Positions 384 through 56,504 of a stretch of 64,000 nucleotides of DNA are shown here, piece by piece. A model generated the notes under the pieces. It was not told the DNA's origin, did no database searches, and worked only from the letters and a program-made list of their open reading frames with translations. Position 1 is the stretch's first letter. The number at the start of each line of letters is the position of its first letter. The stretch is taken from positions 31,975,001-32,039,000 of the forward strand of contig NC_091677.1 in the NCBI RefSeq assembly GCF_042453785.1, read 5' to 3'. Made by a program: the position numbers and the translations under genes. Source of the stretch: Malus domestica (lineage: Eukaryota > Streptophyta > Magnoliopsida > Rosales > Rosaceae).

Positions 384-391
384 TATAAATA
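384..391 (+). promoter_or_regulatory. TATA box of the Harbinger transposase
   Basis: TATAAATA lies about 100 bp before the ATG at 485, suitable for a start site near 415 and a short CT/AT-rich leader. Confidence 0.6.
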
Positions 392-484
392 GGGTGGATA
401 TTGGGCTATAATTCACACAACTTTAAATTCAATCTATTTCAATTCAATCTCTTGCAATTCAATCTCTTTCAATTCAAGTTTGCA

Positions 485-1888
485 ATGAATTCCAACTTTG
501 GATCTTCATCCAATTCCAATTGGGGGTCCTCATCCAATTCCAAATTGGAAGCAAAATGGGCGCAAATGAGACGAGAAGATGAGGAGTCTGATGAAGAAGT
601 TCAAGTAAGGCGCAACAAACAAAACATGGCAGCAGCCATGGCTGCGGCCATGGTGTGTCAGCCAACTGAGGAACAACCTCAATGGGGTGGCTCTGTTGCT
701 GGTCGCTCTTACAAACCACGAAACAGAGCGATGACGCATGCCAATCTGATGAACAACTACTTTAACCCCAACTCGGTGTACACAGAAGAGGATTTCAAAT
801 GTCGCTTCCGGATGAGGCGTCATGTCTTCGAGCGTTTACTTCGTGATGTCCAGCAGGTCAATCCATACTTTCGACAGAAGCGGGACAGAGCAGGCCGCCC
901 TGGTTTCTCACCTCATCAGAAGGTTACTGTTGCACTCCGAATGATGGCATATGGCTCCTCAGCTGATTCGATGGATGAAACCCATGGTATGTCTGAGTCT
1001 ACATGCCTTAATACTCTTGAAGAATTTTGTAACACAATTGTTCAAGTTTACAAAGACGAGTACCTCCGAGAGCCAAATCAAGAAGATCTGAATCGGCTCC
1101 TTCACAAAGCTGAAGACCGTGGGTTTCCGGGCATGATAGGGTCATTAGACTGCATGCATTGGGATTGGAAGAACTGTCCCACTGGATGGCAAGGAGGCTT
1201 TAGCGGAAGGTCGAGAAAGCCAACTGTTGTGTTAGAGGCAGTTGCCTCATATGACACATGGATCTGGCATGCTTTCTTTGGAGTCCCTGGATCCCAAAAT
1301 GACATTACAGTTCTTGGGCGTTCACCCCTCTTCAATAACTTGACGGAAGGTAAAGCACCTCAACTTGACTACTACATCAACGACCGTGAATACAATATGG
1401 GGTATTACTTGGCAGATGGCATCTACCCAAAGTGGGCGACACTTGTCCAAGCAATTCCAAAACCTAGGAATGATGCAGAAAAGTTGTTTACCTTACACCA
1501 AGGGGCATACCGGAAAGATGTTGAGAGAGCTTTCGGTATTCTACAAGCACGGTGGAAGATTATCAGCGAACCGGCAAGAGGGTGGAGTCGAGAAAATTTG
1601 AACTCCATCATGATGTCTTGCATCATATTACACAATATGATAATGGAGGATGAGCGAGATGGGTATATTGATGGAGAGTCCGATGATGACCAAGAAGATC
1701 CAAATAGGTCAAGAAGGGCTCTAGCAAAAATATATGATGGGCCTAATTTGCCTTTCAATCCAAGAACTGGTAGTATCTCTATAAATGAGTATATGAGGCG
1801 CTATAGAATGATACGTTCTCGTGCCACAAATAAGTACCTACAACAGGATCTTGTTGCACATCTTTGGGCCAAAAGAAGCATGGAGTAG
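485..1888 (+). CDS. PIF/Harbinger DDE transposase (DDE_Tnp_4 type)
   Basis: This is an uninterrupted 467-residue protein. It would cut and move the element at its terminal inverted repeats. The three acidic catalytic residues fit the family pattern: D222 in GSLDCMHWDW, D273 in GSQNDITVLGRSPLF and E347 in RKDVERAFGILQARW. The N-terminus is Ser/Asn-rich, then acidic and Ala/Met-rich. Residues about 100-180 hold the helix-turn-helix-like region (MRRHVFERLLRDV, VTVALRMMAYG). The open frame extends upstream to 401, but the first ATG is at 485, after a TATA box at 384-391, so I start there. No introns are needed. Similar proteins are often annotated as nuclease HARBI1-like in plants; here the TIRs and target duplication show it is still part of a transposon. 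Confidence 0.93.
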   Translation: MNSNFGSSSNSNWGSSSNSKLEAKWAQMRREDEESDEEVQVRRNKQNMAAAMAAAMVCQPTEEQPQWGGSVAGRSYKPRNRAMTHANLMNNYFNPNSVYTEEDFKCRFRMRRHVFERLLRDVQQVNPYFRQKRDRAGRPGFSPHQKVTVALRMMAYGSSADSMDETHGMSESTCLNTLEEFCNTIVQVYKDEYLREPNQEDLNRLLHKAEDRGFPGMIGSLDCMHWDWKNCPTGWQGGFSGRSRKPTVVLEAVASYDTWIWHAFFGVPGSQNDITVLGRSPLFNNLTEGKAPQLDYYINDREYNMGYYLADGIYPKWATLVQAIPKPRNDAEKLFTLHQGAYRKDVERAFGILQARWKIISEPARGWSRENLNSIMMSCIILHNMIMEDERDGYIDGESDDDQEDPNRSRRALAKIYDGPNLPFNPRTGSISINEYMRRYRMIRSRATNKYLQQDLVAHLWAKRSME

Positions 1889-4510: not shown

Positions 4511-5463
4511 TTTTTTAATGGGTAAATTACACTTTACCATCTCAGGTTTGAGGTCTATTGCAACCTCATACAACATCTTCAAAACATTTCACTTTCATAC
4601 CTCAAGTATTATTTTATTTTAATATAATATATTTGTTACATTTGCCATCAATTGATTCGTTAAAAGCTGATGTGGTTGCCAAATTTGTGCCACATGGCAA
4701 AAAAATAATTTTTTATTACCCTATTGAAAAAAAAAATGAAAACCCAAAATCTCATTCCTTGACCACATCCCTCTCCTCCACTTTCTTCACCTCCCCTCCC
4801 ATCCAAAACTCACCCCATCCCACCCCACCCTATAATCTTCATCCCATGCCTCCCTCCCTCCCTGCACCTTTCATCCCTCCCTCTCCGCGCACCTTCCTCC
4901 CTCCTTGCACCCTTCATCCCTTTCTCGCCATGGACCAAACATTGCAAATCCCTACAATTCCACGTACCATGGCTTGAAACAAAACCCAGCAAATCCAAAT
5001 CCAAATCTAAATCCCTTTCTACAAAAATCTCCTCAAACCAACCCAAAACCCATCATCTTTTTATCGCCAAATCCAAATCTCTCTAAGCAATGATGTGGTT
5101 CATCCTGCGAGTCTACACTTTTTCGAGATCTCCGACCGCCGACGAAACTGAGTTTTTGTTGGGTGACAAAGGGTCTGATGTATGTCATCTTTGCCGCCTT
5201 GATGACATTTCTGACTGTCAGCGCCCTCAGCTTGTATGGACGATATGTGATGGCAATAGTGTGCGCCGTTCCGAACCACCACAAATTGGTGAGGCTAACG
5301 ATGCTTGAAATATGGCGGTTGTGGTAGAAACAGGAGTCGTGGACACGACTGTCGAAAATGCCAACATCTCCATCCCTCCGACATTCTCTGCCTCCTTATG
5401 TTGCATCGTATTGAGTCTCCCTCTACCTTCGCTCGCATTCCTTCCATTTTCTTCTGTTGTCGG

Positions 5464-5622: not shown

Positions 5623-5753
5623 GGGGGTGGGGTGGGATGGGATGGGTTTTTGGATAGGAGGGAAGGTGAAGAGAGTGGGGGAGATGGGGGTGGTTGGGGG
5701 AATGGGTTTCTGGGTTTTCAAATTTTTTTTTAATAGGGTAATAAAAAAATTGA

Positions 5754-5783
5754 CACGTGGCATAAATTTGGCAACCACGTGGC
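5754..5783. promoter_or_regulatory. Two G-box/ABRE-like sites in the right TIR
   Basis: ACACGTGGC at 5753-5761 and CCACGTGGC at 5775-5783 are perfect ABRE/G-box cores. The left TIR has the mutated CCACATGGC. The sister element carries CCACGTGGC near 51232-51240. Function is inference. Confidence 0.4.
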
Positions 5784-5955
5784 ACAAATGTGGCAGCCAC
5801 ATCAACTTTTAATAGATCAATAGATGGAAAATGTAACGTTATATTGAAATAAAATAGTACTTGAGGTATGAAAGTGAAATGTTTTGAAGATGTTGTATGA
5901 GGTTGCAATAGACCTCAAACCTGAGGTGGTAAAGTGTAATTTACCCTTTTTTAAT

Positions 5956-8146
5956 TCATTAACAACATTGTTGTGTGACCATGATTTTTGCAAGTTGCTC
6001 GAATTTATGCCTCCATCTTCCTCGGTGATGTGTAAATTTGATTGCAACAATTCTTTGTGTGCTTTGTTGGTATCCATTTCCACAAATGACGATATCCGCA
6101 CATTTTTGGTGTTCTATTTCATTTTTCACTTTATTTTCGAAGTTGTGGAACATGAACATTTTAAGAACTTTATACATAGGTAACTACATTTATAGTTGTA
6201 CTATCTTTCATAATTTCCTTTGTATACAGATTCAAAAACCAGACATTAGCTAATGTGATGAAGTTTCGAAGGGTTAAAAGGTGTGTATACCCTCATATAG
6301 CAACAAAATTTCTCACCAAATTGAAGGCAACAAACTTATAGTCTAACCTCTTTTACCGATACCACCAAGTCCCAACAATTATGACAAGCGTCATTGCCAA
6401 TCCAAATGTTCGTTGTCTTAGCCGTCATTCTCTATCATTTCTGTGGTGGTGGCCCAATGTTGTGAGGAAGATGAAAGCACAAGGAAGAGAGAGACGGGTG
6501 AGAAGTCCTAACACTACCGAATTAGAGAGATTGTATGATAGCAGGTGAAGAAAGATGAAGAAACTAGAGAGAATCGCAGAGAGGGAGAGAAATGAACAGA
6601 GGATTTCACATTAATTGACCAACAAAAATGTATACAACTGTTTATTGCATGTAAGTTGTAACAAACTATTCTAACAACCTAGCATATGTGGCAACTCATC
6701 CAGATAGAGAAGAAAGAAGGTAATGTTATGACGTTGTCGCGTAATGGATATCTACTTCGAGCTAGTTAATGTATGAACTAGGGTTGAATAGAGATTGTTT
6801 AATTTAGTTTGGTTGATCTTTATCCAACAAAGATGCCAAATATGAAATATGCATGCAAGAGGCTTATATATATATATATATATATATGAATTATGCATCC
6901 ATTCTTCGTGACTATGGTCAGATTAGCATGACTACTAGAGTCATTCAATCAAGGGGGAGAAAAGACCTATACCTTACCAAGTTGATTTTTTAAGGGGTTG
7001 CGTAATTAGTGCCCACTATTAAGAAATTGTATGGTACGTGAATGGAATTTTCTACCGACTTCTTTCATTCCACTTTCAGTTTCTAGTTAATTGGAGCACG
7101 ACTTCTACCTTTTCCAAAAGCAACAAAAAATCTTCATAGTATATGAACTTTTTCTAGTGTTTTATTATTGAGCATAGGTATGGTTTTTTTCCGCCCATTT
7201 TCTATTTAGCAAATAAATAATAATTTTGTCTATCAAAAAATGGTCTTGGACAACCAATAATGATTTTTTTTTATTTTTTATTTTTTATTTTTTTTAGAAT
7301 TTAGCTGCTTAGTGATCCACTTACTTCCATTATTTTATTGGGCAGCAATTCGTTTGAGTATTAGTTCGGACGATAAAAAATGGGGAAATGATGATTTTAA
7401 AATCTTTCATAGTAGCTAAGGTGAACGTTACGATGAAGTGAAGAGGAAAGGAGAATTTTGTTCGTAAATACACACGATATTATCTACATTAAAAAGTGAG
7501 GCGGTGAATTAAGCTGAACACGACACGAATTAAAGAGAAAATGAGAAATTAAATGAGTCATGCATGAGAGAAAGAAGAGAAGTGTTAAAATTTCAAAATA
7601 CAAAATTGGGCCCAAACACGAAGCAGAGGCCCACAATTTTTTTTTCTTTATTTGAAGATCATCATTAAAAAAATATTCAAATAAGAGGTTGTCTGGCTAT
7701 CAAAATGTATCAATAAATAGACGGTTCATTGTGAATATAGCAAACATTTGGATGACTAAACGATCTCCATTTCAAATGATTTTTTGTAAGAGTGATCTTC
7801 AAATGAAGATGAAGAAATTGAACAATTCCATCTATAAATTTTATATGGTGTAGGTACCTTATTCGTAAAGAGTAGGATATGCGAACTTTCCGCATGAGAG
7901 GATGCAAGTATTATCCTTCTATTAAATTCTAACAATATTTGATACTTCGTAGTTTTCCTCTCGGAATGATCACTACTCGTTCTTGGTAGACTTTTGCGAA
8001 GATTGAGATTTCAATTTTCATCATGTGATATGTTCTTGGTCGTACACCCACTACCTAGGATATTTGTACAAACACTCGACAACCAAAATGTTTTTGGCAA
8101 GACTGTAGCCAAAACCTTTCTTGTACATCAATCCTTGATCATTTAA
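5956..8146. other. AT-rich spacer with a TA microsatellite
   Basis: No gene recognised. A (TA)n run is at about 6865-6888 and T-rich low-complexity sequence at 7265-7310. Confidence 0.5.
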
Positions 8147-8149
8147 ACA

Positions 8150-8800
8150 CACTAGTAAAAAAAAAAAAATTCCTTGCACGAAGGATCTTGAAGTTCGTCG
8201 CTCAAGAAGGGATTGCGCGACCAAAAATAACACTCGTCGCGCAAAGACTCTTACAGAAAAGTATACATCCTTTGCGTAATGTCAATCGAAGTAAAGAGTT
8301 TATAAAACTTCCACGCAACAGTCTGATTTCGAATCCTTTTTCTGTTTTATTACAAACAAAGTGCATATGTAACAAATGAGTGCGGAAAACACTTCCCGTT
8401 GCTAAAAACCTTTTTATCGAGAAGGGAACGACTTTGCAAGTTTTCGTTGGCCATATTGCCAAAAAAAACTTGGCAATTGGTATTTTGTAATTGATGGCAA
8501 AAGATATAAGCCGTCGATAGCAATGTAAACTTTGTAAAGTCCACACAAAGAGAGAGAAACATAGGTCGGAGTTGAACCATTTCCAATTTCCTAGCACGCG
8601 ACCGCAATGTGTTATCTTGCAGCAGCAGTCAAAATGTCCAACAAAATCTAAATACATAAGAGCCTGACCTACACCTTGCAACGAATACCATGCGGTTATC
8701 GTATTCATTGCGACACTGAACAAGATGCTGGTTGATTCACGTTCAGCGTACCAACTGGCAACCTGCAGTTTTTAGAATAAACTTCAATTAAGCTAGCGGC
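8150..8800 (+). mobile_element. Possible CACTA (En/Spm-like) element end
   Basis: CACTAGTAAAAAAA at 8150 is the typical plant CACTA terminus. It is followed by short GC-rich subterminal motifs (TTCGTCGCTC, TTGCGCGACC, CGTCGCGCAAAGA) in both orientations, as in this superfamily. I find no matching end ending in CTAGTG nearby and no transposase, so this is at best one end of a truncated or very old element. The inner limit is arbitrary. Confidence 0.4.
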
Positions 8801-9239
8801 GAATACAGATTAAAATGCAACAATTAGACACACAGCTTTCGCAAATCGGATTTACTATACTTTATATACGAAGGCCAAACAGGAGTTATTATACCTTATA
8901 TAACTTCACAGGAATTCATGGTACACATACATATACCCTCCCCTCACCTAGAAACCGAGAAACTACTACAGAGTCACAAACAAGTTTTTGTTTCGATTTT
9001 AAATCAAGTTGAAGATTGAGAACCTTTTTATGGATGATTGATATACTAAAGGAAACCCATTGTTACCCCTTCACCTCTATAAGAATCCAAGAGAGGAACA
9101 AGATTCGAACGCAATATGTAGAATGGAGAAAAACAAATTCCACCGAGTGGCAACTAATTTCATAGTATATTTCCCTGCTCAATCAAGTACATCTTATGGT
9201 TGATTACTTTTCCATATGCACGTACTAATTTTAAGCAAC

Positions 9240-9257
9240 TGTGAAAAGTCGGAAAAC
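9240..9257. repeat. Left copy of 18-bp target-site duplication
   Basis: TGTGAAAAGTCGGAAAAC is repeated exactly at 14063-14080. It brackets the chimeric insertion 9258-14062. Confidence 0.85.
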
Positions 9258-9320
9258 TCCCCGATAAGCTACAAATATGTACATATGCATGAGTCAAAAT
9301 AAACACACAAGAGGGAGCCT

Positions 9321-10001
9321 TCACAAAGATTGCTTAGGAGAAGTCTCAGCAGTCGGTAGAGCCTCAGAAAGAGAAGGCACCGGAGGGGGATCATTTGGAG
9401 CCTCAGTACTGGACAGAACCCTAGAAGGAGGAGGCATCAGAGGTTGATCATTCGGAGCTTCATTATGCGGTACAGCCCCAGAAGACGAAGGCAATAAATG
9501 CCTTTGAAACAAACCCACAAATCTCTGATGATCAAGTAAAACCTGACCATCAGTTTCCTTCATCTGGTCAAGCTTCCTCTTCATGTTTGTAGCATAGTCA
9601 TGTGCGAGCCGGTGCAACTGTTTATTCTCATGCTTGAGCCCCCTAATCTCCTGTTTGAGACTCATCACTTCAGCCGCCAATGACTCAACTTGGCGGGTTC
9701 GAGCAAATAGGCGTTGGGCCATATTAGACACAGAACCTGCACACTGAACACTGAGAGCCAGCGAATCCTTAACAGCTAACTCATCAGACCGTTTGGAAAG
9801 TAGTCTGTTATCTTTGGGAGTGAGAAGGTTCCTGGCCACCACCGCAGCGGTCATATCATTCTTCATCACGGAATCCCCAACGGTAAGAGGACCAGTAAGG
9901 GAGACGAAGGATGGGCGCCATATGTTGTCTGGAGAAGGCGGGGCTGCCTCTTCAACAAGGTTCAAGTCAAAACGACGGTCAGAGGGGCTAGACATTTTCA
10001 A
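9321..10001 (-). CDS. Coiled-coil protein of an LTR-element family, antisense to the LTR
   Basis: This is an open frame of 226 residues running opposite to the LTR orientation of the element that carries it. Residues about 20-70 include a conserved-looking block (NIWRPSFVSL, LTVGDSVMKNDM, VVARNLLTP). Residues about 85-145 form a heptad-rich, probably coiled-coil stretch (RQVESLAAEVMSLKQEIRGL, KHENKQLHRL). The C-terminus is a Pro/Ser-rich tail with a repeated EAPNDxPxxP motif. A relative of 205 residues is at 44404-45021. I recognise no enzyme, gag or DNA-binding domain. Antisense extra frames are known in some plant LTR elements; function is unknown. Confidence 0.6.
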   Translation of the reverse strand: MKMSSPSDRRFDLNLVEEAAPPSPDNIWRPSFVSLTGPLTVGDSVMKNDMTAAVVARNLLTPKDNRLLSKRSDELAVKDSLALSVQCAGSVSNMAQRLFARTRQVESLAAEVMSLKQEIRGLKHENKQLHRLAHDYATNMKRKLDQMKETDGQVLLDHQRFVGLFQRHLLPSSSGAVPHNEAPNDQPLMPPPSRVLSSTEAPNDPPPVPSLSEALPTAETSPKQSL

Positions 10002-10128
10002 AGGTGTTGAAGAGAGAAGAGGTCGGACAAATCAAGATCTTAGAAGTGCAAGAATGAAGCTTCTACTGGTGGAGATTCAAGTGTGCTTTGAAACTTAATG
10101 CCAGCCCCTATAAAAATCTGCACTCGAC

Positions 10129-12043
10129 GGAGCTTCAGAAATCGAAGAGGCGCCTGCTCAGAAATCGAAGAGGCGCCTGCTCAGAAATCGAAGAGGCGTT
10201 TGCTTTCTCAAAAGTTGGGCTGCTTAGAGATCACGAGGGTTGATCTCAGAAATCGAAGAGGCGTTTGCTTTCTCAAAAGTTGGGCTGCTCAAAGACCACG
10301 AAGGCCGATCTCAGAAATCGAAGAGGCGCTCGCTTTCTCAAAAGCTGGGCTCCCCAGAGACCACGAGGGCCGATCTCAGAAATCGAAGAGGCACCTACTT
10401 TTCCAGCCTTGTCAGCACCTGTCACACGCACACTCAGCTTTGCGGAAATTATGGGCATTCTGTCGAAGACTTCTGGGGAAGTAGAAAACACATGAATCTT
10501 ACTGTTCAATCACCCACTTCCCACACGCAACAATAGCTCACGGGTACCACAGATAACTTTGCCAAAGTTCTCTGCCAAAGTTGAGCACGTGAAGCTTGCA
10601 GCTCCCACTACATCGCTCTGACCAAGAAGGGTAAAAGAATAGCAAAGAAACAACACTAACAAAGTTTAGACCCATAAATTTTGAAGGTCTAGCTACCATA
10701 TTATTACCCACAAGGGTAAAGGAACAGTACCACTGCTGGATAATTGGAAAGTCCCTGTGTGTCAACCTCTGTGCTTCGTGGCAAGGTAGACTAGCAAACA
10801 TGCCCAACCTTTACTCACATTCGAGAAAACACTCCCAATAAGATTGCTTGCTCCAAAATCGAAGAGGCACCGTCCTCCAAATCTCGAGAGCCAGACTCCC
10901 AACATGACTACTTTCTTAAAAATCGAAGAGAGGGTAAAGGAACAGTACCATTGCTGGATAATTGGAAAGTCCCTGTGTGTCAAACCTCTGTGCTTCGTGG
11001 CAAGGTAGACTAGCAAACATGCCCAACCTTTACTCACATTCGAGAAAACACTCCCAACAAGATTGCTTGCTCCAAAATCGAAGAGGCACCGCCCTCCGAA
11101 TCTCGAGAGCCAGACTCCCAACATGATTACTTTCTCAAAAATCGAAGAGACACTGCTTCCCGAATCTTCGAGAGCCAGACCCCCAGCATGATTGCTTTCT
11201 CAAAAGTCGATGAGGCATCGTTCTCCGAATCAATCGAAGAGGCACTCGCTTTCTCAAAAGCTGGGCTGCTCAGAGACCACGAGGGCCGATCTCAGAAATC
11301 GAAGAGGCACCTACTTTTCTAGCCTTGTCAGCACCTGTCACACGCAACAATAGCTCATGGGTACCACAGATAACTTTGCCAAAGTTCTCTGCCAAAGTTG
11401 AGCACGTGAAGCTTGCAGCTCCCACTACATCGCTCTGACCAAGAAAGGTAAAAGAATAGCAAAGAAACAGCACTAACAAAGTTTAGACACATAAATTTTG
11501 AAGGTCTAGCTACCATATTATTACCCATAAGGGTAAAGGAACAGTACCACTGCTGGATAATTGGAAAGTCCCTGTGTGTCAACCTCTGTGCTTCGTGGCA
11601 AGGTAGACTAGCAAACATGCCCAACCTTTACTCACATTCGAGAAAACACTCCCAATAAGATTGCTTGCTCCAAAATCGAAGAGGCACCGTCCTCCGAATC
11701 TCGAGAGCCAGACTCCCAACATGACTACTTTCTCAAAAGCGAAGAGAGGGTAAAGGAACAGTACCATTGCTGGATAATTGGAAAGTCCCTGTGTGTCAAC
11801 CTTTGTGCTTCGTGGCAAGGTAGACTAGCAAACATGCCCAACCTTTACTCACATTCGAGACAACACTCCCAACAGGATTGCTTGCTCCAAAATCGAAGAG
11901 GCACCGCCCTCCGAATCTCAAGAGCCAGACTCCCAACATGATTACTTCCTCAAAAATCGAAGAGACACTGCTCTCCGAATTTCGAGAGCCAGACCCCCAG
12001 CATGATTGCTTTCTCAAAAATCGAAGAGGCATCGTTTTCCGAA
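10129..12043. repeat. Nested tandem duplications inside the LTR-type element
   Basis: There are three levels. At 10129-10400, short copies of AGAAATCGAAGAGGCG alternate with TTTCTCAAAAG(T/C)TGGGCT. A larger block is duplicated with an offset of 817 bp (10522 onward repeated from 11339). Within each copy a unit starting AGGGTAAAGGAACAGTACCA recurs about 217-219 bp apart (10712, 10931, 11530, 11747). Many minus-strand frames here are products of these repeats. Confidence 0.85.
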
Positions 12044-13444
12044 TCTCGAGAGTCAGATACCACAGACCACTTTTTCAAAGTGCTCTGACAGAGTTAAAAC
12101 ATGTGAAACTGGCAGCTCCCACTACCGTGCTATGACCAAGCAGGGTAAAGGAATAGCATTACTACTTGTTGTTAGGGAGACTCCTATATATGTCGACCTC
12201 CATCCCCAACGGACAGGCAGACCTGCAAAAATGCTCAACCCTTCATCATATCTAAGAGGGCACTCCCAACGAAGCCTTTCGAAATATTCAGCTTTCTTTC
12301 CCCCCGATAATACCTCTGCAAACAAGCTATACTAGAGCAAGAATCTCATATCATCAGGGTTAAAAGCAAGAGTATCCCATATCATGCTTTTTTCCTGTCT
12401 TTTCCTTTGGCCTTGTTTTTACCTGCAAGACAAGGAGAAAGAGAGCAATCAGTCAGCACTTGGAATCAAGCTTCCAGCCAGGAACTGACTGCCTGGAACC
12501 CCTTACCTGATTACTTACCTGGCATTGCTCTCGAGTACTCATCTTCAACATGTTATGTTTCCAGGGAAGATTACGCATCTGCTTGAGGAACAGATAGGGC
12601 AAGTGCGAAGGATACAAGGAAGCATGTGGAGACAAGCGTAACAGCACACGTGCCGATACATCCATTACTCTGTCAAAAGCAAAAGTATCCTATATCAGCA
12701 GGGTGGAACGTACTCTAGATTTGATGGACTTGTTTTGACCCTCAAATTCTTCAGTCGGCCTTATACTCTGGAGGAAACCAGAAAACCCTCCAGCTCAGTT
12801 CAAGAATAAGCCTGTGGAAAGTTACTTCTTCAAAAGCAAAAGTATCTCATATCATCTCTTCTCATTTTTCTTCTCTTTATCCTTCATGCTGCTGCAAGAT
12901 GGGGAGAAGGTGAACAATCAGTCGGAGCTCTGATTGCTTACCTTGTCTGTCACCTCTTTCAGCAGACCCCCTAGCTCGGCGAGTTGGGGGACTCCTACTA
13001 CATGGTTTGTATCGCGCTTGACCAAGCCTGAAACTACAAGTAAGCTTCAAGTGAAATTGATACATTACCTTGTGCATCTCCACCAGTTAAAGATACCACC
13101 CCTGGATGGAGGAAGAGTACTTCCAGAGAAGATGCCACATCTACCTATGAGACAGATAAGGCAAGTCAAGACGACACCACACTCCGATACTTAGAAGTTT
13201 CGTGATTACGAGATCATTCTCCCACAATATTTCCTAATGTCATTTGTACTAAATCATTCACTTGTACTCACTAAAGGAGAGCTTGAACCTATGTACTTGT
13301 GTAAACCCTTCACAATTAATGAGAACTCTTCTATTCCGTGGACGTAGCCAATCTGGGTGAACCACGTACATCTTGTGTTTGCTTTCCTATCTCTATCCAT
13401 TTATATACTTATCCACACTAATGACCGGAGCAATCTAGCGAAGA

Positions 13445-14062
13445 TCACAAAAAGCGACCGTTTTCGCTACCTAGGATCTATCTTGCAAGAGAACGGAGAA
13501 TTAGATGGAGATCTCAACCATAGAATACGAGCTGGATGGATGAAGTGTAAGAGTGCATCCGGCGTGTTGTGTGACCGTCGTAGGCCACTGAAGCTCAAGA
13601 GAAAATTTTATAGGACGGCAATAAGGCCAGCGATGTTTTATGGCACAGAATGTTGGGCGGTGAAGCATCAACACGTACACAAAATGGGTGTAGCGGAGAT
13701 GAGGATGCTTCGTGGGATGTGTGGGCACACGAGAAAGGATAAGATTGGGAATGAGGATATCCGAGGTAAAGTAGGAGTAGCCGAAATTGTAGGAAAGATG
13801 AGAGAAAATCGGCTCCGGTGATTTGGACATGTGCAAAGAAGGCCGACTGACGCTCTGGTTCGAAGATGTGACTACGGGACAGAGGTTCAGGGCCGAAGGG
13901 GTAGAGGAAGACCTAGGAAAACTTTGGAAGAGACTCTAAGAAAAGATTTAGAGTACTTGGATCTAACGGAGGACATGACACAAAACCGAGCGCAATGGCG
14001 TTCTAGGATTCATATAGCCGACCCCACTTAGTGGGAAAAGGCTTTGTTGTTGTTGTTGTTGT
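13445..14062 (+). mobile_element. 5'-truncated RTE-type LINE, 3' end with (TTG)n tail
   Basis: It encodes the C-terminal end of a LINE reverse transcriptase protein: RFRYLGSILQ, LNHRIRAGWMKCKSASGVL, YGTECWAVKHQHVHKM, MRMLRGMCGHTRKDKI, and then GRRGRGRPRKTLEETL and a terminal ADPT at 14029. One TGA at 13819-13821 stands where the family has Trp before FGHV. After the stop come GTGGGAAAAGGCTTTG and about seven TTG repeats (14044-14064), the usual 3' end of this plant RTE group. The right copy of the target duplication follows directly. Confidence 0.9.
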
Positions 14063-14080
14063 TGTGAAAAGTCGGAAAAC
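14063..14080. repeat. Right copy of 18-bp target-site duplication
   Basis: TGTGAAAAGTCGGAAAAC, identical to 9240-9257. Its first bases overlap the end of the TTG tail. Confidence 0.85.
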
Positions 14081-14389
14081 AAAACGATCTAGCAGATATA
14101 TTAGCTTATGACTACTCAGCATGGCAAATTAAGGAATACAAAAAACCCTAAACATGGTACTGTGGAAAACAAAAGCAAAGGAAAATTTTGCCTTATACCC
14201 AAAATTCTTCAAATCGAAAAGCAACATGTGCATACATATACTCCAGCAATAGGAAGTTTCATATTGCTCAGAGGATTATTTAGTCTTCATGAGAATATAA
14301 AAAATGTTAAGTTATTATTGTGACTGAAAGCACAGGTCAAAACATAAACAAAAAAAAAGAGAAATAAAAAAATAACAATAAGATATAAC

Positions 14390-16247
14390 TTACTGGGCAC
14401 TATTCTGCAAGTTCTTTTCAGCCTTCATGTTCTTACGCCGCTTTTTGAAAGCTGGAAGAACAGCACAAGAAGTTGGAGAGACGCCCAAAGAAGTTGGAGC
14501 AGGGGGCAAGGAAGTTGGAGCAGCAACCAAGGAAGTTGGGGCAGTAGACAAAGAAGTTGGAGCAGCAGCCAACGAAGTTATGGGAAGCTGGGGGGTTGCT
14601 TGAGAAGCTGGTTCCTCTTGCTTCCGTTTGATAAATTCATGGTGTGGAGGATGCATTCCCAAAGATGCCTCAGGTGCAGCAGCTATTGGAGTGTCAGTTG
14701 AGATTCCATAACTTTGACCTGCGTTTACTGCTGAAGTAGCAAGACTGGCATGAGAACAGTCTGGCTCCTTACTCTTATGTGCAAGTTTGTTTTTAGACCT
14801 AAGGATCTCCAACATAATGGGCGCTGATTCAGAGTCACCTGAATTTATCTTCAATTAGTCAGCCACAAGAAAATAAGTGCATGCACCACATTAACTCACA
14901 AATAAGTTTTAAATTACTTTAAACAAATATGTATAATTAAAATAGTAAAAACAATACCCAGAAGCGATTGAATAACAGCACGAGCCGCCAACTGTTCAGC
15001 CTCTTTCTTTCTTTTTGCAGCTTTCCCTTTATAAGTCACACCATTGAAAACCAAAGAAGATACAAAAAATGGAACCCTCGCTTTTCCCTGAAAAGTGTGG
15101 TATGTAGGTGGTTCAATATTCCTCTTCGTTCTATAATCATTCAGGATGATCTTGCACAACATCAGATCCTGAAAATAACCAATGGAATGTAGTGAAATTT
15201 AATATCTTCCATTCCTTTCTATATTGCATGGTAAACGCAAAGTGTAAAACAAGCAAGCAAAAATTTCATTTAGATAGTGATGATGCCCCAAAAAAGAGTT
15301 GCAAGCTAATTTGACAAAACAAGTTTTTGACAATTCATATAGTATGTTAAAACAAAAAATTTGTACCCAAACAGAAACTTTGAGTATAGAAAACTGAACC
15401 TCATGAACAGGAGTAACAGAAGGAATATTAGGAATAGGAGGAACTTCATCCTTTATCTTCTCCGTTAAACTAATCATGGCAAGTCTCGCTGCATCTTGTT
15501 CAGCAGCTTTTCGCCCAGGAAATGTGTCGGGTGAAGTATAGCAAACTCCACCAACCAACACAGCAGACCTATAGACTGGTTTATTTATCATTCCTTCATT
15601 AACAGTCCGATAAACAGGAGGCGAAATACCTGCTCGCTGGGCATATTCATGCAGCTGATTTTTGTGCGTCAGGTGACCTGGTAAGCCGATATGAACTCAA
15701 ATGTATAAGAACTACCAAAGATCCAATCTTTTGCAAGTTCAAAACCATTATTAAAAAAAAAACGTGAACTTTACAGAATTGTGAGCTAAATTTCATTTCT
15801 CAGATTAAAAATGAAATCAGAGTAAAGTAGAAAACACTTAGAGCTACACAATTTATAATTTTGATTGGAATCATAATTTTTATCCACACACCCAAAGAGA
15901 TTCTTTCAATTAAATCCCGGCGGCGATATCCCACCTCATGATTAATAAGTCGCATATCATATCACCGCGAATAGATACAGAACGAAAGGTAAACCACAAC
16001 AAAACTAGTTTGTTCTCCAAAACCAGACATAACAGTTTCTATAATCTTTTGGGTGAAATATACAGAAAATTATAGGTAGAACGATGTGGGACTTACTCTT
16101 GGAAGAAGAAGCTGATGGAGAAGCAGAAGAAGCCGGATGCTGAGCCGTAACTTTGTGCTGAACCGGAGTCGGAGTCGGGTTTTGTGGTGGAGGTTGGTTT
16201 GAGGGCTGCGATCGGCGCTGAGGGACATTGGAATCGGAAGCCGCCAT
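14390..16247 (-). CDS. Double-stranded RNA-binding protein with two DRBM domains
   Basis: There are four exons: 16247-16097, 15677-15400, 15168-14958 and 14838-14390. All junctions are GT-AG and in phase, giving 362 residues. The N-terminus (1-50) is Pro/Gln/Ser-rich. DRBM 1 is about 55-125 (NQLHEYAQRAGISPPVYR ... FPGRKAAEQDAARLA). DRBM 2 is about 144-213 (CKIILNDYRTKRNIEPPTY ... KRKKEAEQLAARAVIQSLL). The intron after VHE lies where the plant DRB1/HYL1 family joins its two domains. The tail has degenerate APTSL heptads (about 306-337) and a basic KKRRKNMKAEK stretch that could act as a nuclear signal. Plant relatives bind dsRNA and help Dicer-like enzymes; which DRB branch this is I cannot say. 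The start at 16247 is the ATG after a CCTGTGGAA context; an in-frame ATG lies 30 bases upstream. Confidence 0.9.
14464..14580 (-). repeat. 21-bp coding repeat in the DRB gene
   Basis: Five to six degenerate 21-bp units encode (A/S)PTSLxx heptads in the last exon, between DRBM 2 and the basic C-terminus. Confidence 0.8.
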
Positions 16248-42385: not shown

Positions 42386-42646
42386 GTTTCTAAAGCTACT
42401 GTAAAACCTCTCTCCACCGCTGACACACCTCAGAACGAAGCATAGAGAAGCCCGCCTCCATCACCATCCAGAACCAGCCTCCATCACCATCCAGAAAACC
42501 AAAGTTGAAGAAGAAGAAGGCCGCACCATCCTCCACGGACCACCAAAACGATCGTCACTCAGAAACAAAGGAAGAAAGATCCAATGAGCGACATCGCTAA
42601 TAAGGGAGAATACGGGAAGGACCAACAAAGGTCAAAAAGTGAAGCG
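42386..42646. other. Spacer left of the copia element
   Basis: A short direct repeat of GCCTCCATCACCATCCAGAA occurs twice near 42455-42495. Otherwise unrecognised. Confidence 0.4.
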
Positions 42647-43079
42647 TGTTCTAAAATCGATCGTGGTGCAGTGGAATAAATAACAGGACATAAAATTTAC
42701 GAGGTTTTTCTACAGTCACTGTGACTAGAGTACATTTTCGGGGCAGCAGTGATGATTTCATTGTAATCTGCAATAATAAGAGTACAAAGATAACTCTCTC
42801 TATTATCTTCTCTCGTCTTCTTTCCTCTCTCTCTACCGTGAGTCTCTCTGTATGTTTTTTTTTATTGCATTCGAGTGCTCTATTTATAGAGCAACTCGTA
42901 TTATTACAATTTCACATTTACAACACCCAATGTAGAAAAACGATCTCCTGCATCCAAAGTCAATTTCCATTTTCATGGGTATTGAAAACTTATGCCAAAG
43001 TTGAAAACGCATTCTGTGTGAGAATTGGAAAGTCTTCCAAGGTACTGTGGGCATTCACTACCCAGCAGTATTTTCAACA
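42647..43079 (-). repeat. Copia 3' LTR
   Basis: 433 bp, collinear with 48049-48485. It contains a TATTTATAGAG stretch (TATA region on the minus strand reads CTCTATAAATA). Confidence 0.88.
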
Positions 43080-44403
43080 CTCCCCCTTGGATGCCCACAT
43101 ATCAACATTAGTTACCTCGTTAAGATCTTGATCTGTTTTGGATGCTCCCCCTGTTTTCAAATCATTTAAGTTGATCGTTGATCATTCTGCTTCAGTCTCT
43201 TACTAAGAAGAGTTGCCGAAAGAGATGTTTTACTTGTTAACTTTCCATAGGCTTGTTCTTGAACTGAGCTGGAGGGCTTTCTGCTAGACTTGCTTCAAAA
43301 GTTTGAATTTACTCCTTTTATCTGAAGCTGAATTTTATTCAAGGGTGGTGGACACTTGACTTTGAATCGGACTTGTGATTTCTTCAAGGACCTTCGAGGC
43401 TTGATCTTGAATGAAATTGGACCATGAGGAGCTTCACGTGGCAAGTGATCTTCGGTTTTGTCGGGGATGCTTCAATGTATCATTTTCACTTTCCTTACTT
43501 AATCCCCTTGCTTAAGTAGTATTTTCCCTGGGTTTCCCCCATGCATGTGTGGCATATTCTGCTGCAGTATTTGCCTTCTGATGCAGTAGTGGAATGCAAC
43601 CCTTGTATTTGGATGGTTCATTACTTCTTGGTGACTGGAGACCCAGCTCCAACAACAGTTGAAGATGACTGCTCGAGAGCTAAGTAAGCAATCAGGAAAG
43701 GTTCCAGGCAGTCGGTTCCTTACCTGGAGTTTGAGTGGAGGTTCTGACATATTGCTTTCTTTATCCTTGTCTTTGCAGGTAAGAACAAGGACAAAGGAAA
43801 GGACATGGAGATTGCATGATATGAAATACTCTTGCTCTCGTCCCTGAAGATATGAGATACTCTTGCTCTGGTGTGACTTGTTTGAAGAGGTATTCTCGGA
43901 AAGGAATAAAACTGAGTATGTTGAGAGGTTTGGTTGCAGATGCATCTTCGGCAATGAGAGAGAGAGTTAGGAGTTTTGGATGTGTGTCTTGCCATGGAGG
44001 ATGAAAGTCGACATATATAAGGATTTCCCCAATAGTAGGTAGTGGTGTGGATGTGACTTTGTCATCCACGCTTGTCGACAACAGTGTTGTAGTTGAAATA
44101 GTGAAATTCACGCGTTTTCAACTTTATCAGAGATCTTTGACAAAGTTGTATGTGATATCCAAAAGTTGAGATTGCGTCTGAAAAATGCCAACAAACTTTA
44201 TTCAGGAAAATCTGGCTTTTGAAATTCAGAGAGTTGTGCTTCTTCGGTCTCTGAACAAGTGGCTATATTGCCTCTTCTTTTATAGAGGTATTGCTTGTAT
44301 TCAAATTTGCACACTTTGAAGATTTCCCACTTGTGAAAATTGTCTCTGCTGTATTTCTAAGATTTCACTATATCCAACCTTTTTCTTTCATCAACTTCTG
44401 AAA

Positions 44404-45021
44404 ATGGCTTGCCCATCTAACATTTGCTTAGATTTGAGTCTTAAGACTAATAAAGGCGAGCCCCATCAGGATAATATATGGCGCCCGTCTTTCTTATCTT
44501 CAAATGATCCTCTTACGGTTGGGGACTCTGTGATGAAGAATGACCTAACCGCTACAGTGGTAGCTAGGAATCTTCTCACTCCCATGGATAACAGAATCTT
44601 TTCAAACCGATCTGATGAGGCTGTCGTTCAAGACTCTTTGGCTCTCAGTATTCAATGTGCAGGCTCTGTATCCAATATGGGCCAACGCCTACTTGCTCAA
44701 ACTCGCCAAGTTGAATCATTGATGGCTGAGGTGGCAAGTCTTAAACAAGAGATTAGAGGGCTCAAGCACCAGAATAGAGTGTTACACATGCTTACAAATA
44801 ATTATTCAACGAGCATGAAAAGAAAGCTCGATCAGCTACTAGAATCCGAAAGTCGGACGCAAAGTGACAATCAAGGGTTCAGGTCTTTATTCCAAAGACA
44901 TCCATTGTCTCAACCGTCTGGAGTTTCACCAAGTACTGAGGTTCCAAATAATCAACCTCTGGTGCCTCCCCCTTCTGGAGTACTTCCGAGTACTAAGGCT
45001 TCACATGAGCAACCTTTGTGA
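44404..45021 (+). CDS. Second copy of the coiled-coil LTR-family protein
   Basis: An open frame of 205 residues clearly related to that at 9321-10001. Shared blocks are DNIWRPSFLSS, LTVGDSVMKND, VVARNLLTPMDNR, SLALSIQCAGSVSNMGQRLL and VASLKQEIRGLKHQN, plus a Pro/Ser-rich tail with EVPNNQPLVPPPSGVLPSTK. It lies inside the copia element, opposite to copia transcription, between the decayed pol and the 3' LTR. Sequence upstream (about 43460-44400) is also collinear with the other copy, so this could be a nested relative of that element or an extra antisense frame of the copia family. Function unknown. Confidence 0.6.
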   Translation: MACPSNICLDLSLKTNKGEPHQDNIWRPSFLSSNDPLTVGDSVMKNDLTATVVARNLLTPMDNRIFSNRSDEAVVQDSLALSIQCAGSVSNMGQRLLAQTRQVESLMAEVASLKQEIRGLKHQNRVLHMLTNNYSTSMKRKLDQLLESESRTQSDNQGFRSLFQRHPLSQPSGVSPSTEVPNNQPLVPPPSGVLPSTKASHEQPL

Positions 45022-48000
45022 AGGTTCCCTCATGTTTTCATGTGTATGTTTGTAATTTCTCGGAGATATGAATAGATAAGCTTTATTTCATTCAATGTAT
45101 TGTGTCAAATATAATAAAGCATATATTGCACTAAGATGTGGTACTTCTGGACCAAATATCAATTCAACTTTTCGCTCACGAAGATGAATGATTTTTCTTA
45201 GTGTCTAAATATTTGAGTATTCAACTCATAATCTTTAATCCATATGGTTCTTTAATATCATAAACATCATGGATAAGATTCGTGTTGGCATATTGTTCGA
45301 TCTGCAGTTCGAGACAATATTTCTCTCAACACTTTATAATCTTTCTTGACTCTTCACGAATCCCAATTTAACATCATCAACTCTTAAGGAGTTCTAATTT
45401 AATGTCATCAATTCTTGCAAGAGATTTTAGTATGTTGCAACAATATCATAATGATAGTACTCACTAAGGCAATTATACCACTCATTGGTATTGAGTACAT
45501 ATTTTATGTTTTACCCTTCGGATGCTTACTTCAAGCAATTTGAATCCTTCAGGGATTTTCTACACTTCATGACACATTTTTCTTTGGAATTTATACAGAG
45601 CAACTTGCTCCCATGTATAATTGAAGGATTTACTTATGGAGATATGATGTGGGCGACTCACAACCCTTCGTATATAATTCTCCATTCATATGAACTCGTT
45701 TACAACCTTGTGTCATATCATGTGAGTGTATTTCACTGTATTACAAATGCCCAATGTAACCTCCTTGGTTCAACATCTTTTGGCTATTTGTATTATATTC
45801 AAATATATAGGTCCATGTTTTCACGTTCTTACAAAATTGTAATGGAATTTCCTTTCTCCATCTTTGTTTTTCGTTGAAAAGAACGAGACTCAATATCAAC
45901 ACAACTCATTGATGATTTTAGTAGCTATTTGTAAGAACCAAAATTACCATTGGTTATCATCAATCTATGATCTCATATTCTCATGTGCATGCACATGCAT
46001 AAAAGCTTTTTATTTCTTTGGATATCCATTGCCTCTTCAAGGGTATTACACTATCTCTTCCAGGATAGTCGTAATTTAGAGAATGCGTATCATAACCTCT
46101 TCTTGAGCATTATAGAGCTTGGATCTTAATCTCCACTTTCGGGAGTTGAGTCATTGGAACCTATACGTCTATCATGCTTCATGCATAAGACATCAACATT
46201 CCCATGTCCGCGAATTGTCCTTTCTGGGATGTGAATCCATGCGGCAACTGTCATGCTTCTAGCATGCAACAGTTATGCTTTGGGAATGTAATAATTCAGT
46301 AATGTCATATTCTTCTTCTTTCAAAAGACTGAATCTTCTGAGTCTGAGGGTTTGTCACACTTCAGGTGTGTAACATATAACTCATTTACTGCCTCATTAT
46401 TTTGTCCAAATAGGGACATCAATTCTTGTAAGCACATTTGCAACAAATATATGTGATTTCATCACTTTTGTTGCATCATTAAAGGCATCTGGCATTTGAT
46501 TGACACATCATTGCATCATTCAATTATTCTTACTTCATTTTCATGTTGGTTGCTTCGTGAATCAAAATAAGACAAATTCTCTTCGTTCTTCTGGAACGAT
46601 CCTTTATTGTCATTCTTCTGGAATGATATTTTCTCCCCTTAACGGCGGGGAAATTGTCTTATCAAAATGACAGTCCGCAAACCATGCAATAAATATATCC
46701 CCAGTTAAGGGTTCTAAATATTAAATGATAGATGGTGTTCAACATCAATGCCCATTTCAGTACATTATGGCAGTGCAATAGACACATAGATAACACAACA
46801 AAAAACTCGTAAATGTATAATGTTTGGCTAGTGCCCAAACACGAGTTGTACTGAGGAATATTGATGGTTGGCAACTGGTATCAACCGAACTTAATAATGC
46901 GTCATGTAAAATGACATGTCCACATGTAGAAAACTGGTAATTTCGTTTTCATGAGTAGAGCGCGAGTAATCAATTTCATCCGCTTAATAAATGCTTCTGC
47001 TAAACCATTTTGAGTATGGACATAAGGAACTTCTGGTTCTTATTTAATAGTCTGTAGACTGAGACTCTTATGGCTTTTATTACAATTAAATTGAGGCACT
47101 ATGGCACTTCAAACTTACGGTACTTATCAAGGAACTTTATGTCTTGATCTTGAGGATCAAGGGACTTCATGCTCGATCCTTTTTGTATGATGGAACTTCA
47201 TGTCCAATCATTTTTATATGATGATGATCAAGAAACTGCAGGTTCTGATCTAATCAAGGAACTCTGGGTCCTTGTTATACTCATCGTAACAAAATATACG
47301 TACAATAAATAAATTAAAGCAATAGGCGGTAATTCCAGCCATAGTAAATAAATTGCATTTAAGTAAATAAAGCTTGTGAAAAGGGCTTTAATTTAGCACC
47401 ATTCACATAAATCAAAACTTAAAGCCGTAGGCGGTAAAACTGTCAATGATAAATAAATTGCTTTAAAGTAAATAGATATTGTGAAAGGGTTTTAAACCAA
47501 CACCAATTCACATAAATAAATATATATTTTTCTTCTTTCTTTTCAGATGGTATGACATATACCATTTCCCATTCCCGTGTTTTCTTCAATTTTTCTTGCA
47601 TGGCCTAGAGAACATAGCATCGCGAAGTAAGAACCTCCATACAGGAACATAGATGACAGCGGGGTTGATGGAGGTACAAGAGAGGGAGGCCTATGTGGAG
47701 TCAGTCTTGCCATCACCATCTTAGACAACCGAGTATTCATGGGAGTTCTCGAGATCCGTCGAAAACGACGCGATCTGGGTTTCCAAGCCTGATGAGATTT
47801 TTCTGGATCTCTGGAAACCAGTTGTCAGGTACGAGTTTTCTTATCTTGTGACGACTACAGGTCGTTGTAAATTTCAATTCTCACCGGAATTCGGTGGGGT
47901 GCTTCTGGCGCGGTGGGAGATACAGAAAATGGACACACATTTTATTATGTGAGATTTTTGGCTAGCAGAGGTGGGAGGTAGGTAATGTTTCACCGGATTT

Positions 48001-48048
48001 ATGGCGTTGTGCTTTCCACTGACATGAGAGCTTATAGTGCTGATAACG

Positions 48049-48485
48049 TGTTGTAAAATCGACGGTGGGTGTAGTGGAATAAATAAACAGGACACAAAAT
48101 TTACGAGGTTCCTCTACAGTCAGTGTGACTGGAGTACATCATCGGGGCAGCAGTGATGCTTTCATTGTAATCTGCAATAATAAGAGTACAAAGATAACTC
48201 TCTCTATTATCTCCTCTTCTCTTCTTTCCTCTCTCTCTCTACCGTGAGTCTCTCTGTATGTTTTTTTTTATTGCATTTGAGTGCTCTATTTATAGAGCAA
48301 CTCGTATTATTACAATTTCACATTTACAACACCCAATGTAGAAAAACGATCTCCTGCATCCAAAGTCAATTTCCATTTTCATGGGCATTGAAAACTTATG
48401 CCAAAGTTGAAAACCCATTCTGTGTAAGAATTGGAAAGTCTTCCAAGGTACTGTGGGCATTCACTACCTAGCAGTATTTTCAACA
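48049..48485 (-). repeat. Copia 5' LTR
   Basis: 437 bp, collinear with 42647-43079, followed by the AAGCG target duplication. Confidence 0.88.
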
Positions 48486-51049: not shown

Positions 51050-51909
51050 ATTCAAATTGAATAAATTATATAATACATTTTTAGGTTTGAGGTTTATTAC
51101 AACCTCATACAACATCTTTAAAATGTTTCACTTAATACTATTTTATTTCAAAATAATACATCTGTTAGATTTTCTATCTATTGGTCTGTTAAATGCTGAC
51201 GTGGCTGTCACATTTATGCTAATGTAGCTGCCACGTGGCAAAAAAAATTTATACATTAAAAATATTATAATATTAACCCTACTTAAAAAAAATAAAAATA
51301 AATAAATAACCCAAACATAGAAATCCTTCCCCGCAACCCCACATCCCACCCCCACCCCCTTACCCATCTCTTCCTTCCCGTCTGTCCATCCCCTCCACCC
51401 GTCCATCCATTCCTTCCACCCCTCCATCCCCTCCACCCGAGCACCCCTTAGCGCGGGTCCCACCTCGACCTATCTCTCTCCTTCCCTCTCTCTCCTCGGT
51501 AAAATGTGGAATTTGTGATGCGAGTGTGGTTTTTGAGGTCTAGTGCCTCGCCTACACCGTCCTCCCAACCGCTTCACCTACACCGTCCTGACTCAACCAC
51601 TCCAACAACCCTATCCAAATTTCTCCATATATTCTTCTCCCCTCCCAAAAAAAAAAAAAAAAACTCCTAACTTTCACTCCCACTCTCAAAATCCAAATTC
51701 CAGCCATTGTTGATGGACCATCGTCTTGCCTTCTCAACCCTCAAGCTCCGCATAACCACCGTCTTCACTCTTTCCCACCCCGCCGTCTAATCGTGGACCG
51801 CTGATCGGTTCTTGAGGCCGTTGACCGTCGTTGCCGGAGCCGGGGCGAGCCACTGCGAGTTCAGCAGCCTCAACTTGCCTCTTGACCCCCGAACCTGACC
51901 CGGAAAGGA

Positions 51910-53420: not shown

Positions 53421-53457
53421 TCCACATCAGCACAAATGTGGCAGCCATGTTAGCATT

Positions 53458-53827
53458 TGTTTATACCATATTTAGGGCATCCGTATTTAGATTTCGTACA
53501 AATATTCAGGGGACTTAAATGTAATTATGTAATAAAGGAAGGAAGCAAATATGTAATAAGTGAGGAGCTCTTATTCTATAAAAGGACTCATCACCTTCAC
53601 AATTAAAGAGGCCATTTCTTAAGCCTTCTCACCCCTCTCAAAGTCTCACTCTTATTACAGAGGCTCTCACACTTTTTCCCTCACAATCCTCTCAGAAATA
53701 CAATAATCAGTGTGGACGTAGCTCAAACATTGGGGTGAACCACGATACATCTTGTGTTATTTACATTTCTTGCAGATTCACGGTCGGATTTACGTTGTTT
53801 CAAGACCTCCGATTTTGTGCATCACCA
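53458..53827 (+). repeat. Left LTR
   Basis: 370 bp with TTCTATAAAAGGACTC as the TATA region, collinear with 56991-57360. Confidence 0.88.
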
Positions 53828-54960
53828 TTTGGCGCCGTCTGTGGGAATTGATATGAAAAGTTGTGTCGGTTCTCTTTCAATTTTTCACCTCCGCCATGAA
53901 TCTGCAGAAACCCAGAACCTCTCTCCTTGGGTTGTTCCAAAAAAAAAAAAGCTTGAGATTTTCATCAGAGAGTAAGTGTACCTAAAGCTGTGTCCTTTAT
54001 AGTTGCTAGAGCGCAGGACGACAATCACCACTTCCTAAGAGGTTGTAAACAAAAGGAATCCGGAGCAGTGCAACACTTCTCAGCCACACTGATACGGTGT
54101 TGAGTGAGGAAACAAAAAGCTGAAATGGACACAAAGCGAGATTTGAAAGGGACGACAGAAGGCGAGAATGGAAAGAGGAAAAGGACAACGCACAGCTTGC
54201 AAAACGACTTTCAGAGCTCCATAACCTATCTTCTCCCTGCATAAACTTCCTCCTCGTGTGCTTCTCCAGGTCATCTTCTCTGTACATAAAATCCCCCACG
54301 TCTTTTCTACCATAAAGGACATCTCCCACCCCATGCAGCCTTGTAGCAGAGAAATGCAGGAAATGAACTCCCCAGCTTCCTCATCGCAACTCTCCCTTCA
54401 AGACCACCACCACCTCCAACAACGATGTCGGCAACGGCTCCTCCTTCAAAATCCACAAACATTGCAAACAGTAATGGAATTGGAGATTCGCGAAGCCTTT
54501 GCCGTTGGGATCCGAAACGACGCCGTACTCCACCACATGGCAGGTAGGTCGCTACGTGCTTTTCCTCTTCATCTTCTTCTTGCTCGGACGGAAGAAGCAG
54601 CCAACAAATGGCCACGGCGGACGGCCCCGACAACCGTACGAGTTTCAGCGCTCGCTCGTGCTATCCTGATGTTGGATGGTTGGACAAAAACGTAGATTCC
54701 GTCTTGAAACTCCGACTTTCATTCGGGTCTAAAACCCACAACAGGCTCGTCATCACACCATTCCCAGTCAATGATGATAAACCTTCATCTTGCGCACAGA
54801 CGCGTATACCAGCGCCATCGCCTACCATCTCCTCCGCGTAAATCCACCATTATGGGTCACTTCCGCACACTTCCACACCAACGCCGTCGCTTGCCACCTC
54901 CTCAACACTTCCTCTGATTACACACTTCCCCGAAACTACTCAGCTCAGCAGCTTGAACTG

Positions 54961-56335: not shown

Positions 56336-56504
56336 GCAGGGTATACAAATACCACTTCCGAACAACCGCCACTTCGACCCATACATGGATTCAATTTGAA
56401 GTCTCTAGCCAACAGAATCTATTGACCAAAGACTTGGGGGACTATATTATGTACCATATATTGGGCCTCATGAAAAATACTTGGGGGACTTAGCCTATTA
56501 TTTA

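Follow-up and report, generated by a model that had tools for sequence, protein, structure and literature searches.

How part of an LTR retrotransposon and the 3' end of a LINE came to lie side by side within a single target-site duplication is the question raised by a locus in a predicted intron of apple (Malus domestica). The locus lies in a 64,000-nt stretch of contig NC_091677.1, referred to here as the window. The best explanation of the whole, which we hold with a modest degree of preference, is a single target-primed reverse transcription by an RTE-type LINE enzyme that included a template jump and left a chimeric cDNA in the intron.

The insert is bounded by an exact 18-bp direct repeat, TGTGAAAAGTCGGAAAAC, whose copies at 9240-9257 and 14063-14080 enclose 4,805 bp, as the first-pass annotation had reported. 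When both strands were searched for this sequence with up to three mismatches, only these two sites were returned in the window (0.06 expected), and none of 100 shuffled sequences contained two. Identity ends at 18 bp and stretches no further to the left or the right. The other exact pairs in the window (at least 18 bp long, copies more than 500 bp apart) were sorted by eye and read as repeat families, LTR pairs or simple sequence. One seeming exception, the pair 5782-5799 and 53430-53447, is a repeat-family copy split by an LTR retrotransposon, element A. The right copy of the duplication adjoins a (TTG)7 tail (14044-14064, plus strand), and since the TG with which this copy opens could equally belong to that tail, the size of the duplication is best given as 16-18 bp.

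The left ~4.2 kb of the insert is the 3' part of an LTR retrotransposon in sense orientation (9258-13449, plus strand, with a right edge uncertain within 13380-13468), truncated on its 5' side at the duplication. Its anatomy was read from two LTR elements in the window, A and B. Colinear homology to element B covers 9307-10045, 12161-12554 and 12779-12824 and was extended to 9258, while 10046-12160 matches B in short pieces only. The plus-strand segment at 12779-12824 resembles B upstream of its 3' LTR (B 43283-43238, 93%). An antisense ORF of the element (9321-9995, minus strand, 224 aa from its ATG) is homologous to an ORF of B (44320-45021). Internal tandem and segmental duplications with units of 23, 65 and 219 bp occupy 10135-12057 on the plus strand, and within them 10522-11231 recurs at 11339-12045 (97%). 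Farther right, a purine-rich TTGGGGGA noticed by eye at 12984-12991 (plus strand) may be a polypurine tract; the 3' LTR of element A is preceded by a similar one. The 3' LTR of the insert would start at 13003 on the plus strand and end, possibly incomplete at its 3' side, around 13449. It carries a landmark, GTGGACGTAGC..GGGTGAACCACG..TACATCTTGTGTT (13338-13379, plus strand), that is common to both LTRs of element A and matches their downstream portion; the landmark scored 57, whereas two sets of 200 shuffles peaked at 32 and 27. The foreign part is thus in RNA-sense orientation, in agreement with elements A and B. The alignment with B and the landmark shared with A bear out the earlier reading of the left 4.2 kb as an LTR-type element. 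Element B itself was considered as a candidate for the TGTT/AACA LTR families of Rosaceae, as these are described in the available part of PMC5659011, and this was dropped, its LTRs starting with TG and ending with CA.

The LTR part had also been said to begin at the duplication, and its homology to B does start at 9258 under stricter gap scoring. The 75 bp just inside 9258 align with B from the first base and score 49.6 (maximum of 1000 shuffles, 30.4), and the 75 bp just outside score 22.7, a value reached by 18% of 1000 shuffles. A longer outer stretch of 218 bp, compared with B 45060-48046, scored 29.5, which 56% of 200 shuffles reached. When the edge of the alignment was left free, it fell exactly at 9258 in two of the five scoring schemes, in which gaps were penalized more strictly; in the three with cheaper gaps the alignment ran on beyond the duplication, its left end falling at 9010 or 9028. 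We read this leftward run as a chance extension, since the outer sequence, taken by itself, does no better than its shuffles. No LTR-length direct repeat was found between the ends of the insert, and no 5' LTR at its left edge. Intact LTR integration leaves two LTRs and a 5-bp duplication; here the left edge is interior sequence and the duplication has 18 bp.

The last ~0.6 kb of the insert is the coding 3' end of a LINE (13454-14031, plus strand, left edge uncertain), in one frame that is interrupted by a TGA at 13819-13821 and closes with a TAG at 14029-14031. Its length suggests that the LINE part is 5'-truncated. The peptide FRYLGSI, encoded from 13462, is presumably a LINE protein motif. 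Tail, insertion site and putative protein motifs together fit an RTE-type LINE. The seven flowering-plant RTE families in Table 3 of PMC3747384 all terminate in (TTG)n or (TTGATG)n. The insertion signature of plant RTE elements, in the portion of PMC13295347 available, consists of a duplication that starts with T, has typically (not universally) A as its second base, and follows a T-run some ten nt upstream. The duplication in apple begins with TG, sharing the initial T and departing from the typical TA, and a TTTT run at 9229-9232 (plus strand), 8-11 nt upstream of the duplication, fits the published signature. The joint chance of a T-first duplication with TTTT 8-11 nt upstream is about 1.8% in this window. 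The first-pass annotation had named a 5'-truncated RTE LINE with a TTG tail; the frame running to the TAG and the (TTG)7 array agree with this, but Pfam and PDB lend the RTE assignment no support. For the LINE part, Pfam returned nothing above its cut-off (one sub-threshold AT_hook, E 0.17), and PDB sequences gave one unrelated match (E 1.2). Protein patterns from the LINE frame had 105 matches in non-plant genome contigs and 18 in viral contigs, with no relative in either set; the pattern from the antisense ORF had one match in viral contigs, again no relative. DNA patterns taken from the end of the LINE and from the region of the LTR and its junction matched nothing in viral contigs or in the non-plant genome contigs. 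A further pattern was absent from the window, and sequence strings looked up in paper texts gave no match.

Where the two parts meet can be bracketed between 13380 and about 13468 on the plus strand, the landmark ending at 13379 and FRYLGSI starting at 13462; the junction proposed earlier near 13440 could not be confirmed more closely than this. The terminal sequence of the element A LTR was not found near the junction. Beyond the landmark the LTR part extends for ~70 bp before giving way to the LINE, and no poly(A) longer than an A5 run (13449-13453) follows it. The LTR part therefore seems to run past the likely poly(A) region, the position of which is presumed, and this suggests a read-through RNA; an LTR mRNA with a normal end would lack the stretch beyond that region. 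A junction hairpin was considered as a pause site and dropped, its best window ranking 35th among the 24-nt windows of the LINE part.

The composite lies within a predicted host intron on the minus strand (8763-14393, donor GTAAGT, acceptor CAG) of 5,631 bp, which would measure 808 bp without the insert. A neighbouring ORF (15199-15696) contains a dsrm domain, and intron and ORF probably belong to one gene, apparently for a dsRNA-binding protein.

A single LINE-driven insertion is well supported because the duplication is exact, the LTR homology stops there, both parts share the sense orientation, and tail and site are of RTE type. We therefore consider it highly probable that one RTE-driven event inserted a single chimeric cDNA. 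Both parts are sense-oriented, as RNA templates require. Under this scenario, an enzyme of the RTE clade would have nicked the target near the T-run, primed on the TTG tail of a LINE RNA and first copied about 0.6 kb of it. It would then most likely have jumped to a nearby LTR-retrotransposon RNA, of which about 4.2 kb may have been copied before copying stopped at 9258, and integration would have duplicated 16-18 bp of target.

Given one event, a template jump is slightly favored over an RNA that was already fused. The first-pass annotation had proposed both one event and a jump; the single insertion of both parts holds, and the jump is plausible, but a pre-joined transcript leaves an identical scar. 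Such a transcript, formed by 5' transduction, is a possible though less probable source. It would come from an RTE copy situated within the 3' LTR of an LTR element or directly behind it, with both in sense orientation, so that transcription of the element reads into the LINE and ends at its tail. The RTE proteins would recognize the LINE 3' end of the fused transcript, and its cDNA would be inserted once, 5'-truncated. This route accounts for an LTR part that seems to pass the likely poly(A) region. It also has precedents in the available parts of two sources: LINE machinery is thought to mobilize SINEs with a common 3' end, including the partner of a plant RTE (PMC3747384), and 5'-transduction chimeras of L1 are documented, with 17 insertions carrying mRNA or lncRNA sequence (PMC13174262). 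However, it would need a particular source locus and read-through. Trans-splicing or RNA ligation, both proposed for LINE-1 chimeras in the available text of PMC13174262, could also have joined the two RNAs before insertion, which we judge very unlikely here.

A LINE may instead have inserted with its duplication and later received an LTR element, after which a deletion took out the 5' part of the LINE along with the 5' LTR and half the interior of the LTR element. Plants often carry nested LTR insertions, and under cheap-gap scoring the homology has no sharp edge on the left. However, the deletion would have had to end precisely where the duplication ends on its inner side, homology to B reaching 9258 with zero bases between, and no 5' LTR is seen; we regard this history as unlikely. 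Repeats are easily misjoined in assemblies, but an artefact joining unrelated repeats is extremely improbable here: the 18-bp duplication sits exactly at the two ends of the composite, which also lies inside a plausible intron that has both a donor and an acceptor.

Comparable chimeras are known from other lineages, as far as the available portions of the sources describe them. In the MINE elements of Magnaporthe, WEIRD RNA is fused to a 5'-truncated MGL LINE and template switching has been invoked; direct repeats at the outer edges were shown for 19 of 31, and for the other 12 no check was possible (PMC2104539). Like the apple insert, MINE elements combine the 3' end of a 5'-truncated LINE with a foreign RNA copy, direct repeats lying outermost. 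Their partner, however, is a full-length non-coding RNA in a recurrent chimera, whereas in apple a truncated LTR retrotransposon is joined to a plant RTE-type LINE at one locus. Mammalian LINE-1 chimeras with U6, Alu, mRNA or lncRNA, for which a template switch or a fused RNA has been proposed, likewise have one target duplication and both parts in the same orientation, but belong to the L1 clade with poly(A) rather than an RTE-type TTG tail (PMC13174262). In HERV-W pseudogenes processed by LINE-1, LINE machinery likewise inserted LTR-element RNA and left a target duplication; these copies end at R with poly(A), their 3' LTR being without U5 (PMC5016936). By contrast, the LTR part in apple has a LINE attached and seems to reach into U5, the R/U5 border being presumed. 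Plant RTE-clade LINEs and SINEs share with the insert the TTG tail, the T-first duplication and the T-run about ten nt upstream, but their ordinary copies, as the available parts of PMC3747384 and PMC13295347 present them, are without a foreign 5' part. For partial Sadhu retroposons of Arabidopsis, template switching has likewise been proposed to explain foreign sequence in plant retroposons; the foreign stretch in the described case is 19 bp, and the available part of PMC2848041 names no partner from an LTR element. Among the listed titles and abstract openings of open-licence literature, no plant LTR/LINE chimera was found.

The mechanism is already known, in mammals and fungi, and it is the partner that is unusual. 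If the insert arose in one event, a plant RTE-clade enzyme is able to bring in, beside its own tail, several kilobases from an unrelated element, and the chimera formation of L1 and fungal LINEs extends to multi-kilobase LTR-element RNA in the RTE clade. LTR regulatory sequence could in that case reach a gene intron without integrase. It is a speculative and rather doubtful extension that LTR-element RNA has, in the RTE-LINE machinery, a second entry into plant genomes that needs no integrase, either through jumps to LTR transcripts produced by read-through or through a multi-copy composite element of fused LTR/LINE transcripts. Recent copies of such chimeras would allow the joining step to be counted across the genome.

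The composite insert, in which a fragment of an LTR retrotransposon is followed by the 3' end of an RTE-type LINE, is flanked by an exact 18-bp direct repeat, TGTGAAAAGTCGGAAAAC, at 9240-9257 and 14063-14080, as the first-pass annotation had claimed. These are its only copies in the window when up to three mismatches are allowed; the chance expectation is 0.06 matches, and none of 100 shuffles held two copies. Identity between the copies ends after exactly 18 bases on both sides. As a (TTG)7 array (14044-14064) stands directly before the right copy, its TG can be assigned to either tail or target, giving a duplication of 16-18 bp and an insert of 4,805 bp (9258-14062). Among all exact repeats of 18 bp or longer whose copies lie over 500 bp from each other, inspection by eye placed the remaining pairs in repeat families, paired LTRs or simple sequence. 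The one pair unexplained by self-comparison (5782-5799 and 53430-53447) is a repeat-family copy split by another LTR element, element A. This short element (53458-57360) lies inside a dispersed-repeat copy (53430-57522), its left flank matching 5782-5799 and its right 5800-5960. A short dispersed repeat family is found at 4517-4830 and 5625-5949, 51062-51219 and 57356-57522, with one copy pair inverted about 1 kb apart.

The LINE part has a single frame that is interrupted once, by a TGA at 13819-13821, and closes with a TAG at 14029-14031; the FRYLGSI of this frame starts at 13462. We take the frame to encode the C terminus of an RTE LINE protein of plants; searches of the LINE part gave no Pfam match above cut-off (AT_hook was the one hit below it, E 0.17) and, among PDB sequences, one unrelated match (E 1.2). 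The TTG tail supports the RTE identity: in the excerpted text of PMC3747384, all seven flowering-plant RTE families carry a (TTG)n or (TTGATG)n tail, and 224 of 233 L1 families a poly(A) tail. The plant RTE signature excerpted from PMC13295347 is a T-run about ten nucleotides upstream and a duplication with T first and typically A next. Here the duplication begins with T, its second base is G rather than the typical A, and TTTT occupies -11 to -8. In this window, an initial T combined with TTTT anywhere from -14 to -7 has a chance probability of about 1.8%. The array, the T-first duplication and the upstream TTTT fit the RTE end with a TTG tail noted earlier.

The left part resembles element B, a minus-strand LTR element with LTRs at 42645-43079 and 48047-48485 (94.5% identical), TG...CA LTR ends and a 5-bp duplication, CGCTT. 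BLAST matches are colinear and in sense orientation: 9307-10045 (two pieces, 72-78%), 12161-12554 (74%) and 12779-12824 (93%, about 160 bp before the 3' LTR of B), with short matching pieces only in 10046-12160. Internal duplications (23-, 65- and 219-bp units) are dense in 10135-12057, where a 710-bp segment also recurs at 97% identity. Antisense open reading frames at 9321-9995 (-) and, in element B, 44320-45021 (+) share 130 of 204 aligned residues; their dN/dS of about 0.27 (bootstrap 0.16-0.40, 200 resamplings) suggests selective maintenance despite running opposite to the element.

For the inner 75 bp (9258-9332), the alignment to B starts at the very first base, opposite B 45066, and scores 49.6; the best of 1000 shuffles reached 30.4. 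The outer 75 bp beside the duplication score 22.7, reached by 18% of 1000 shuffles, and the outer 218 bp against B 45060-48046 score 29.5, reached by 56% of 200. The claim that the LTR part starts exactly at the duplication held in these shuffles and in the two of five free-edge scoring schemes with stricter gap costs, which start at 9258; the three with cheaper gaps extend to 9010 or 9028, as a separate earlier alignment to B likewise ran left of the duplication. Since the outer sequence alone does no better than shuffles, the extension looks like chance, and LTR-element sequence most likely ends where the duplication ends. Such a cut is what a reverse transcript stopping there would leave, unlike an integrase product.

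Toward the LTR/LINE junction, the clearest landmark is 13338-13379, present as a 47-bp span in both LTRs of element A (53458-53827 and 56991-57360; duplication GCATT, with TTTGGCGCCG after the 5' LTR). It scores 57 against shuffle maxima of 32 and 27 (200 shuffles each), which identifies the region before 13380 as belonging to the downstream portion of a plus-oriented 3' LTR. The 5' LTR of B gives a mere 20-bp match there (score 25); with an interior module in common with B (9258-12824 versus 42645-48485) and this landmark with A, the LTR elements appear mosaic in composition. Near the junction, neither the terminal sequence of LTR A (best match 7 of 15 mismatched) nor its primer-binding site (11 of 20) was found, which hints at a cut inside the LTR. 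Because A and B differ in their LTR ends, the LTR of the insert's family may have another end again, and it is conceivably complete at the junction; related apple and pear LTRs presumably reach about 60 bp further. This argument bears mainly on whether the template RNA was already fused.

That both parts came in together, as the first-pass annotation proposed, fits the exact duplication, left edge, tail, site and common sense orientation, all of which one target-primed event would account for; such an event very probably inserted the composite. A nested insertion followed by deletion is highly improbable, since its breakpoint must coincide by chance with the inner edge of the duplication. The simplest reading of the joining is a template jump: reverse transcription would start from LINE RNA, then jump to LTR-element RNA, and the transcript would stop at that inner edge. 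Precedents are the chimeras of Magnaporthe (PMC2104539, in excerpt) and of LINE-1 (PMC13174262, in excerpt). Alternatively, read-through transcription from the LTR element into a LINE copy located within or next to an LTR could have supplied a fused RNA, whose insertion would leave an identical scar. LTR A has AATAAT just before the landmark (at 53702), so its RNA plausibly ends near there; by analogy the insert, extending some 70 bp beyond the landmark, would pass the putative poly(A) region, and the LTR template was perhaps read-through RNA. Such RNA would fit the fused route and is also compatible with a jump onto a read-through transcript; we regard the fused template as the less likely source. 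In contrast to the insert's LTR, the L1-processed HERV-W copies described in the excerpt of PMC5016936 stop at R, with a 3' LTR without U5. The kind of event is already known, and this is a single locus with a hypothetical joining mechanism; our search of the open-licence literature found no plant RTE insertion with kilobases of LTR retrotransposon.

The insert lies within a predicted minus-strand intron (donor GTAAGT, acceptor CAG) of 5,631 bp, or 808 bp without it. Across the predicted splice the upstream frame carries on for 18 residues before a stop. For the adjoining open reading frame (14390-14854), Pfam gave no match at an E cut-off of 0.01, and its upstream neighbor (15199-15696) has a dsrm domain (PF00035, E 7.3e-8); we infer that the two belong to one gene. 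Elsewhere in the window, a 499-residue open frame at 389-1888 (+) matches Plant_tran (PF04827, E 1.9e-98) and DDE_Tnp_4 and is presumably a PIF/Harbinger-type transposase.
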